Assembly (NCBI RefSeq): GCF_016906535.1
Contig: NC_057373.1
Location: 2,604,001 to 2,668,000 of the forward strand
Direction: 5' to 3'
DNA: 64,000 nt
From: Rhizoctonia solani
Taxonomy: Eukaryota > Basidiomycota > Agaricomycetes > Cantharellales > Ceratobasidiaceae
Part shown: positions 58,030 through 64,000 of the stretch, one piece after another
How the letters are laid out: each line of letters opens with the position of its first letter
Position numbering within the stretch: position 1 is the first letter of the stretch
Translations under genes and position numbers: made by a program
The notes under the pieces: model-generated
What the model was told of the DNA's origin: nothing
The model's database searches: none
What the model saw: only the letters and a program-made list of their open reading frames with translations

Positions 58030-59033
58030 TTATCGTAATGAGGGAATAAGGCACTCGGCGAGTATATTCACTCCAACAAACTGAACCAAACCCTTTGGCA
58101 CATCCTCCAAATCAAAGATTGTTACGTGCCCCTCCCCAGTTCGGCGCGCCGTGGATATCACGTACGTGTCCGTCGCGTGCTGCACTAGAAGAGACACGAT
58201 ATCCCAGCCTGACGGTGGTTCTCCGTCTACTGTCACAGTTCCTTCCAAAACGTCATATTCGATCCTGGCAAAATCATATCCTAGCCCTTCTCCCAAGGCT
58301 TTCGTGTAAGCTTCTTTTATCGTCCACATTCTGTATAGTCTCAGCAAGCGAGTCGCCTCGTTGCCAGCCCTAGGGTGGAGTGCTTCTTTCTCGCATGCAG
58401 TAAGCTGTACCCATATTCGATGTCAGTGTCCGTATTGCCATCCGCCTTGATTCTCACCCACCTGCTCTGAAACAAACTCGATAAATTCTCCCATAGAAGT
58501 CCTCCGGGGCAACGCAATTTTCATCACATCTATTCCCACAGGCTCTCCAGCACCACAAGCGATGGCTACCATGTCCGAATCGTGAGTGGCATTGTAGGTC
58601 AGGGGAACAGAGCTTTGAGTCTGCCAAGTTGTCAAGTTGTCAAGTACAATAGGCTGGGTTTCTGGCTAATACTTACGATAATAGGCTTTCCGTGCTCGGT
58701 TGCTTCGAACTTGACCATCTCTGTATCTATTTGCTTTTGACGAAGCCAATATCGAGGAAGTAGTTGACCAATGAGTGATCCTTTAGGAACCAGTTTGTAA
58801 ACTGCCTATTGTTCCAAGGAAATAGTAAAATACTCCATGAATCTTCGGCATGATAGAATTTTCTCAATTTCGCTTGTCTTTCATGTGGCAGAATGCTCAT
58901 CAGATGGTTCAAACTCTAAGCCACCTTTTTTAGTTCTGTTGATACATATTTGTGGAAAACGTACTTGATTATTGATCAGTTCACTGTCCCATTCTAAGAT
59001 TGTAACATATATAACTGCATTACTTTCTGCCAT
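58030..59033 (-). CDS. 4'-phosphopantetheinyl transferase (Sfp/Lys5/NpgA type)
   Basis: Transfers phosphopantetheine from CoA to carrier domains, such as alpha-aminoadipate reductase, polyketide synthases and peptide synthetases. Start MAESNAVIYVTILEWDSELI. Introns join NNQ to SLNHLMSILPHERQAKLRKF, then YHAEDSW to RSLIGQLLPRYWLRQK. The magnesium/CoA motifs are VGIDVMKIALP (from 58520 down) and MWTIKEAYTKALGEGLGYD (near 58300). SVPLTYNATHDSDMVAIACG is the conserved P-loop-like block before them. It ends LIPSLR, about 265 residues. No carrier-protein gene is visible in this window, so the substrate is open; lysine synthesis is the most likely basic need. Confidence 0.93.
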
Positions 59034-59187
59034 GGAGGGAGCGATTACGATGTTTATTTGTTTCCTGCATCACCCTCAGTGGTGTGGCTGTGGCCTCGGG
59101 CCTACAACCGTATATTGAACCACGACTGCCCAAGGTCGTGATAGCCCTTTAACCTCAGTTCAACTGTGCCTGTTAGCCTTTTGCAAG

Positions 59188-60788
59188 ATGCTACGGTGGT
59201 GCAACCTCCAGGTGGTAAAATGTTTCAAGTGCATGGAACGCGCTGCGGACACATTTACCGGTGTCGCTGGTCCATTCTTCGTTGGATTCGCATGCTTATT
59301 GATGGGTTCTGGTGTTTTGGTGTTCTGTAAGTAGCTGTCAATATCTTAGTGAATGTATCTTTAATTTCGGCCCGCACATACCCAGTCGAAGTAATTGCTC
59401 CAGATCTTCCATACCCTCTTATTACAATTCCTCTGTGCCTACTTATTGCGGCAAACCTATTGGCACATTATTACTACGTGTGTACGACCCACCCAGGAAA
59501 CCCGAGTGATGGCCTGGGCACAGCCGAGGGCCGAGGGTGGAGCTGGGCTCCAAAACGCCGCGGTGGCGGGGTACAATGGTCGCCGGTCAGCCTTACAGAT
59601 CCGACGGGTACAAGAGCTGTGCCTAGGTGTAACAAGTGCCATGGGCCGAAGCCCGAGGTATGTCATTTGACTGTGGTACCTTATCGACTCGACTAATGCC
59701 ACTTAGCGAGCTCATCACTGTCGTGAGTGTAGCCCCATTGTATATCCTCTAGTTGCATTCACCCACTCTGTTAGGCGTATGCAAATCTTGTATCCTCAAA
59801 TATGTAGGTGCAGTCCTGTCTCTCGAACGAATGCTTAGGACTGAATACCAGTTTAAAGGACCATCATTGTCCAGTAGGCAAATTCCTCAAGCTACCATAG
59901 CTCGATATCTAACCATTGACAACTGTCAGTGTAAGTAGTACACATTGACGGAAATTCTACTCATGGTCCTGATGATTACAAACTACAAGGGATTAATCAA
60001 TGTGTGCGTATCTATCTTCTCATCGGGTCCAGTGTTATAACTTATGACCCTGCACTTCAGGTCGGTCTTCGCAACGAAAGAGACTTTGTGCTTTTCATGT
60101 ACGTATTGCGGTTGTCTTATTATGGTTCAAATCCAACTAACCAAATGACATGGATCGTAGGTTATATTTCGTGATCGCGACCTTTTGTTTTGTTGTTGCT
60201 GGATACCGAAAGGTTTGGCCGGCTCTTGACTTTGGCATGCATTCGGTGGGTATCGAGATAATTCTGGGGCGCATGACTAAGTGAATCTATCATACTAGTG
60301 GCCATATCGGACACCCGAGATGGTGTATCTTATTATATATATCTTATGTTTGGCATTAGGACTGGCGGTGTCCGTGATGTTAGCCTGGAATATCTATCAA
60401 ATAGGGAAAGGTGTAACAACAGTCGAAGGGTATGACCATGGGATATATTCAGATAGGGCCCAAAGCCGTGGAGAGGTAAGTTCCAGCAAGCCTAGATTCG
60501 CCCCCTGTTTGGCTAAATTGTTTTAAGAAATTCGTTAATAGCTTTGATCTTGGCTTTTTCAAAAATCTTGCGTATTTCTTCAACGTCATACCATCTGGAT
60601 AGTAAGTTTTTTGGCTTATGTTATAGGTATATGCCCATTCAATGACGATATTCAGCCCATTGTGGGTTCTTTTACTTCCACTCCGTACCGCCCCCTATAC
60701 CAATGGATTTGTATGGGCGAGACGTCAAGGCTATACCAAGCATGGAGGACTAAGAGAAGGCGAAGAAATGACGGATGACGAGGATTGA
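59188..60788 (+). CDS. DHHC-type palmitoyltransferase
   Basis: Membrane S-acyltransferase. Start MLRWCNLQVVKCFKCMERAA; four helices: VAGPFFVGFACLLMG, LITIPLCLLIAANLLAHYY, FVIATFCFVVAGY and MVYLIIYILCLALGLAVS. The zinc/DHHC domain is built from very small exons: 59707-59722 (RAHHC), 59775-59803 (VCKSCILKY), 59859-59873 (DHHCP), the single base 59930, and 59990-60003 (rest of W, then INQC). Spliced it reads RAHHCRVCKSCILKY, DHHCPWINQC, VGLRNERDFVLFM. Downstream is the NSFDLGFFKNLAYFFNV segment (the NPFDLG/TTxE-type C-terminal motif), and the end is LREGEEMTDDED. About 335 residues. Catalytic Cys is that of DHHC. Resembles PFA4-type enzymes; a specific orthologue is not claimed. Confidence 0.92.
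59930..59930 (+). other. One-nucleotide exon of the DHHC gene
   Basis: Single T between CTGTCAG and GTAAGT. Intron 59874-59929 (56 nt, CTAAC branch point) precedes it and intron 59931-59989 (59 nt) follows. It supplies the first base of the Trp codon in DHHCPW and sets the frame for INQC. Confidence 0.75.
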
Positions 60789-60921
60789 CTAGATAGATCT
60801 ACTGTATGCATTTTAGGTCTGTCAGGGGAAAAGCATTTCACTTGGAATAAAGCTTCCCGTACAGCCACCCTTGCAAGAAGCCCACCTCGGCGCCTAGTCA
60901 AGTGAAAGCCAAACTCAGATC

Positions 60922-63490
<2,569 letters not shown>

Positions 63491-63786
63491 CGCAAGTAAG
63501 AAACCGGTGTCGTATAAAATCACCCTTCAAATATAAACCGTCCACAAACAATGCAATTGACCAAGCCCATGCATACAAAAAGACTGACACATCCAGGCGA
63601 GACACAGCGCTCGAGAGAGGAAGAGTGAGAGGAAGAGAGTGAGCGTGAGAAAAGAGCCAAGAGAAATAAAAGCAACATGTCCAAAAAAAATCATATATGC
63701 TAACAAAACATATGGTCGAGCGGATTTGTACAAGTCTGGGATGTTGGTACAGTCTAGATCCAAAGCCGCTCTCGCCTATTCCGATC

Positions 63787-64000
63787 CTATCTTATGGTCT
63801 TCCGGTCGTCGTCCGTCCCAGCAGCAACAACAGTAGTCCCGCTTTCACTCGCTGCGTCATCCTTCTCTCCTTCCTTCCCAACCGTGTCCCCATTTCCTGT
63901 TTCGGATATTGAGAAGTTCGGCGCAGTTGGTGTGGGCCCATCCAGCGCAACCCCGGTTCTACCGTTTGCGTTCAATGTCGGGGCCGACGCCTGACTCAGG
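63787..64000 (-). CDS. C-terminus of an uncharacterised protein, 5' part outside the window
   Basis: The frame is open from the right edge and reads LSQASAPTLNANGRTG, then ALDGPTPTAPNFSISETGNG, an acidic KEGEKDDAASESG stretch and TDDDRKTIR-stop at 63787. Low complexity, Ser/Thr/Asp-rich, no family recognisable from 71 residues. Convergent with MSD1, about 295 bp between stops, which includes an AG-rich stretch at 63600-63670. Confidence 0.55.
   Translation of the reverse strand, partial: LSQASAPTLNANGRTGVALDGPTPTAPNFSISETGNGDTVGKEGEKDDAASESGTTVVAAGTDDDRKTIR

Follow-up and report, generated by a model that had tools for sequence, protein, structure and literature searches.

A very probable one-nucleotide exon completing the DHHCPW motif of a predicted PFA4-like palmitoyltransferase of Rhizoctonia solani

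The window analysed here, a stretch of 64,000 nucleotides of Rhizoctonia solani DNA, carries a gene for a predicted PFA4-like DHHC palmitoyltransferase (coding span 59188-60788, forward strand) in which the T at position 59930 very probably constitutes an exon of its own. This single base (59930-59930, exon 6) would be spliced constitutively and would supply the T with which the Trp codon TGG begins, completing the DHHCPW motif of the acyltransferase. When the T is included, the 12 exons of the gene make up one open reading frame of 330 amino acids.

The gene product was assigned by domain, homology and structural comparisons. The protein scored 114.6 bits for the Pfam DHHC domain (cut-off 28.7), showed 85% identity to its relative P0001, and aligned with human DHHC20 (6bml) across the Cys-rich domain, where the DHHCPW motifs coincided; these three comparisons were carried out with a first model of 334 amino acids, which differs from the final one of 330 amino acids in one C-terminal junction. 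Among the best 120 of 255 matches, the nearest named proteins belonged to Rhizoctonia and Ceratobasidium. The name PFA4-like is our own assumption, made on the basis of the length of the protein, its fungal relatives and a TTVE sequence, seen by eye in the protein of 330 amino acids, which fits the TTxE motif that we take to follow the last membrane segment of PFA4-like enzymes. All 11 introns of the 12-exon model are GT-AG introns, and the nine located outside the disputed gap are 49-62 nt long (mean 54.8, SD 4.0). The zinc-binding catalytic Cys-rich domain is encoded by exons 3 to 8 (59707-60098), an extreme run of microexons of 16, 29, 15, 1, 14 and 38 nt in a row, of which exon 3 (59707-59722), exon 4 (59775-59803) and exon 8 (60061-60098) were placed by the splice model.

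Exon 5 (59859-59873, 15 nt, GACCATCATTGTCCA) codes for DHHCP, ends in phase 0 and is followed by a GT at 59874. On the other side of the gap, an AG at 59988-59989 precedes exon 7 (59990-60003, 14 nt, GGATTAATCAATGT), which starts with GG ATT AAT, needs one base ahead of it, and contributes the GG of the Trp codon and the residues INQC. The original prediction had placed these two segments at exactly these coordinates and had described them as one base out of phase; indeed, when exon 5 is joined straight to exon 7 the frame is lost and stops appear. Within the gap, CTGTCAG ends at 59929, the lone T lies at 59930 and GTAAGT occupies 59931-59936. The two resulting introns are workable ones of 56 nt (intron 5, 59874-59929, GTAGGC...CTGTCAG, with a CTAAC branch-point candidate) and 59 nt (intron 6, 59931-59989, GTAAGT...TACAAG, with a CTGAT branch-point candidate). 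The position of the T, both intron lengths and the presence of CTAAC in the first intron were all as predicted. Regarding the further claim that such lengths are normal for this genome, they are normal with respect to the other nine introns of this gene, within which the comparison was made. A single intron of 116 nt would be an outlier, since those nine range from 49 to 62 nt.

All paths over the gap were enumerated that start from a GT or GC donor, end at an AG acceptor, contain no intron shorter than 40 nt and include no more than one inner exon. Thirteen of them keep the frame and eight do so without a stop, but one alone, that through T59930, gives DHHCPW, so that among the enumerated paths the conserved motif is reached only with this base, as had been proposed. 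The same path is the best-scoring one in frame, with 9.4 bits per intron vs. 4.9 for the runner-up. The splice sites on both sides of the T had been called perfect. This holds for the donor of intron 6 (GTAAGT), which is strong with 8.8 bits, but not for the acceptor, as those of introns 5 and 6 score 3.3-3.6 bits compared with 4.9-7.6 for the other nine. The donor of intron 5 (GTAGGC) is weak as well, with 3.0 bits vs. 7.1-10.1 for the other nine donors, all these values coming from a small matrix trained on the same nine introns that serve as the comparison. In 20000 dinucleotide shuffles of the gap, with 6 nt fixed at each end and both introns of at least 45 nt, the arrangement YAG-T-GTRNGT was obtained 5 times, while AG-T-GT was found in 3.8%. 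Given that bare AG-any base-GT appeared in 6.8% of the shuffles, it is the consensus context and not the bare dinucleotides that carries the weight.

Comparison with related DHHC proteins at this site, which had been suggested as a check, favoured the prediction at the protein level. The best 120 of 255 matches of a homologue search comprised 26 transcript-like proteins and 94 genome-derived models. The former lie on contigs 1.1 to 4.0 kb long from non-NCBI sources and are most likely transcripts, because the contigs are short and each holds a single open frame (311-383 amino acids). The latter are NCBI or nr records from Agaricomycetes and two Dacrymycetes, the class of each named species being presumed from its name; that the Dacrymycetes belong to the Agaricomycotina was checked. 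Within these best 120 of 255 matches, DHHCPW was present in 26/26 transcript-like proteins vs. 3/94 models (Fisher p 2.4e-23). One more short-contig protein with DHHCPW, P0195, from the best 120 of 451 matches of another search, was left out of the 26. When 12 further models were added (P0121-P0124, P0154, and seven from the search with the best 120 of 451 matches listed), the motif was intact in 4 of 106 genome-derived models from these two classes among the matches listed, namely P0007, P0020, P0091 and P0192. Some of the species concerned may lack the split, or their models may have been curated. The best 120 of 255 matches contained no sufficiently close pair of transcript-like protein and genome model from the same species, the closest pair reaching 82%; closer pairs may be hidden because the database is clustered at 90%.

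The disagreement is concentrated at the DHHCP/INQC junction. Among the best 120 of 255 matches, 78 of the 94 models have an insertion or deletion there with respect to the window protein, vs. none of the 26 transcript-like proteins. At nine other junctions, 0-8 of the 94 models from the same set do so, with the exception of junction 9 (27/94), where the variation must be at least partly real length variation because 8 of the 26 transcript-like proteins also vary there.

A public R. solani model, P0005, lies on a contig of 4.74 Mb, while the contig of the window measures 3.76 Mb, and it therefore comes from a different assembly. P0005 retains intron 5 but joins T59930 to G59990, and when the window is read with the same join 71/71 residues are identical across it, the two sequences differing just upstream. 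This model backs the window sequence from another assembly, and it supports the downstream one of the two joins in the proposed splice pattern. Its retained intron 5 would also suit an exon that is real but whose inclusion is regulated, with skipping shifting the frame and lowering the level of the enzyme. We regard such regulation as improbable, as no skipped form was observed in the 26 transcript-like proteins, although only long open frames would appear among them.

The faulty models also preserve traces of the DNA flanking the junction. They were studied in 98 models (the 94 plus P0121-P0124) by reading the protein sequence, from which the DNA of the other species was deduced. After DHHC, 44 of the 98 read PVR, three PVW and one PVG (among the matches listed). 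This fits the result expected with a donor 4 nt downstream of a true CCN|GTRNGT donor: a gene-finder forced to mend the phase would take the GT four bases on, adding GTR plus one base joining GG, which would give Arg if that base is A or C, Trp if it is T and Gly if it is G. In 25 models the residues inserted before INQ end in xG. Read-through of the true acceptor would place its G before GG and give Gly, and x would come from NYA (YAG) or NAA (AAG). The residue x has an NYA codon in 23/25 models, vs. a background of 0.449 (p 1e-6), and is Q or E in the other two; it must be noted that this test was widened post hoc, 23 models fitting YAG and the last two AAG, with P0022 (VG) set aside. In 12 of these 25 models, V stands at one end of the insert and xG at the opposite one, which leaves no T next to either flank, whereas Trp is present in the transcript-like relatives. 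PG is found in 11 of the 98 models and AG in one, the result to be expected if either splice site contributed a single additional genomic G. The rest consist of three intact models, three reading DHH-W, and others with different inserts or with INQ lost. Both Coprinopsis models among the matches, P0025 and P0079, show the artefact. The model artefacts suggest a putative AG-N-GT layout in the orthologous DNA of other species. P0154, which also has Trp before INQC, was not counted as support, given that its preceding Ile codon cannot end in AG. A DNA pattern of the three-part layout gave 0 matches in the contig collection scanned, a prokaryote collection without fungal DNA.

These observations bear on three other readings of the junction. 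According to one of them, there is a single intron of 116 nt plus a one-base assembly error, the T truly adjoining exon 5 or exon 7 (the strings at issue being CAAGGGATT and CCAGTAGGC). Introns of 116 nt are possible, but this reading is very improbable: P0005, from a different assembly, matches in 71/71 residues across the join, the faulty models of many species fit the same missing base, with 12 showing both flanks without a T, and the YAG-T-GTRNGT arrangement (5/20000 shuffles) would be left unexplained. The chance that another in-frame path is used, either through a GC donor at 59878 (DHHCPVG-INQC) or through a donor inside TGT (DHH-W-INQC), is equally slight. Both alternatives are open, and public models include comparable choices (PVR, PVG, DHH|W); however, the GC donor scores 4.9 and the TGT donor -0.1, against 9.4 bits per intron, and the products lose either the Trp or the Cys-Pro with the catalytic Cys of DHHC, whereas DHHCPW is kept in all 26 transcript-like proteins (best 120 of 255 matches). 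Finally, that the gene is decaying or frame-broken at the junction and the lone T a coincidence is hardly credible, for although direct joining breaks the frame, with the T the 12 exons form one open frame, the first model shares 85% identity with P0001, and the recurrence of this anomaly in many species speaks for a common intact layout.

Outgroup models behave differently from those of the Agaricomycetes and Dacrymycetes. Counting named records only, the motif was intact in 81/85 outgroup genome-derived models among the matches listed, distributed as 24/27 in Tremellomycetes, 22/22 in Ustilaginomycotina, 25/26 in Pucciniomycotina and 10/10 in other fungi, with class assignments that we presume to be correct. 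Of the four failures, P0170 and P0179 are without the stretch and P0190 and P0144 are aberrant. Unnamed records were left out of the count; those shown all read DHHC.W except P0214, whose sequence (DHHCPCSYIS) is aberrant. Also left out were two other unnamed records, P0163 and P0165, together with P0164 and P0166, which are non-fungal, and all four read DHHCPW. In P0179 (Cryptococcus deuterogattii), compared with P0167, the segment from KPE to VGLH is missing, DHHC motif included, and the boundaries of the missing segment correspond to junctions 2 and 7 in the window gene.

Both Dacrymycetes, P0038 and P0062, show the artefact. Since the models of Agaricomycetes and Dacrymycetes mostly fail at the junction while 81/85 outgroup models are intact, the split Trp codon is probably common to both classes and misannotated in most of the sampled models. 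It was probably already present in their common ancestor and has been retained in most of the species sampled, the simplest reading being that it arose after the Tremellomycetes branched off. The aberrant P0144 (Puccinia striiformis) has R before INQC, and P0190 (Tremellales MAG) has xG before INAC. From these two proteins there is a weak hint that the intron within the Trp codon, which lies downstream, is the older of the pair, its upstream neighbour being a later addition. As for the origin of the exon, TGG may already have held a phase-1 intron when a phase-0 intron was gained one base upstream of it. An alternative origin has been proposed, in which a base is lost and the frame is then rescued by a cryptic AG-N-GT (PMC12940212).

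With respect to the mechanism, two ordinary GT-AG introns of about 56-59 nt would be taken out in succession by intron definition, yielding CCA-T-GG and hence the active-site motif in DHHCPW-INQC. Sequential removal is probable because splice sites located one base apart are probably not occupied at once. The favoured order would be intron 6 first and then intron 5, as intron 6 has a strong donor and intron 5 a weak one. It is also conceivable, but unlikely, that the exon, after intron gain one base upstream of an older intron had fixed it in the ancestor shared by Agaricomycetes and Dacrymycetes, has been kept since and works as an obligatory splicing-order checkpoint. If this were true, only transcripts losing intron 6 and then intron 5 correctly would give active enzyme, and splicing fidelity would set the level of the palmitoyltransferase.

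Recursive splicing with zero-nucleotide exons relies on adjacent 3' and 5' splice sites and stepwise removal and leaves no base in the mRNA. The window gene likewise has adjacent 3' and 5' sites and would undergo stepwise removal, but AG and GT do not abut in it: one T lies between them and is needed for the frame. A one-nucleotide exon has reportedly been found in placozoan mitochondria as well. Fusarium, which provides one of the cases discussed below, belongs to the Ascomycota. One-base exons had been described as very rare, with plant APC11 as a known case, and this agrees with the few nuclear cases found in the literature searched (APC11, VPS55 and CYP621A). The exon of the window gene is very probably real and of the same kind as these three. 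Arabidopsis APC11 has a constitutive exon consisting of an A within an intron region of 422 nt, demonstrated by cDNA and minigenes, in a report that also mentions ratchet points (PMC4674806). As in APC11, the base of the window gene lies between AG and GT, is required for the frame and was missed by annotation, and the sequential splicing by intron definition proposed for APC11 is proposed likewise for the window gene; unlike that plant case, the window gene is fungal, has a T and two introns of less than 60 nt, and is known from sequence (PMC4674806). The plant gene VPS55 has a deeply conserved 1-nt microexon, mostly unannotated, with a GTRAGT donor and shown by RT-PCR, and isoforms with and without it exist in some plant lineages (PMC8831610). 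Frequent lack of annotation and the GTRAGT donor, and probably also the deep conservation, are shared with the window gene, although VPS55 is a plant case (PMC8831610). The P450 gene CYP621A of Fusarium has a one-nucleotide exon whose G is the middle base of a codon, backed by 18 RNA reads, and is described as the first such case for a fungal gene (PMC12940212, 2026). Both are fungal, in both the base completes a codon of a conserved motif and gene models are faulty at the site; however, the window case is from Basidiomycota, involves the first base of a Trp codon and has a class-wide range by indirect evidence (PMC12940212). In the open-licence literature searched, which was a limited check, there was no report of the one-nucleotide exon of the window gene nor of any case in Basidiomycota.

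The present gene is thus added to the few nuclear one-nucleotide exons and is the first in Basidiomycota within the literature searched. Indirect evidence indicates that this exon is probably very widespread, far more so than the sole published fungal case. An intact DHHCPW is absent from 102 of the 106 genome-derived models of Agaricomycetes and Dacrymycetes among the matches listed, and such faulty models corrupt databases, domain models and functional readings of DHHC proteins. In addition, because the introns are short and mushrooms tractable in the laboratory are predicted to share the layout, it offers a simple test system for a spliceosome facing two sites one base apart.

Three DHHC matches were found in the genome (40.7 Mb, 16 contigs). 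Two of them, L001 and L003, carry the motif DHHC[PQ]W whole inside one open stretch each (DHHCQW and DHHCPW, respectively), so that splitting of the Trp codon is not a general feature of the DHHC genes in this genome; in L002 the motif was not seen in the frames read. A search of the genome for a second copy of the gene returned the locus itself only, and Rfam gave nothing at the gathering threshold over 59000-61000. The next gene downstream, at about 61000-63900, was assigned by eye and is presumably an aspartyl-tRNA synthetase. P0154, a public model of Ceratobasidium sp. 395, fuses tRNA-synthetase domains to the palmitoyltransferase, which suggests that the two genes are conserved neighbours.
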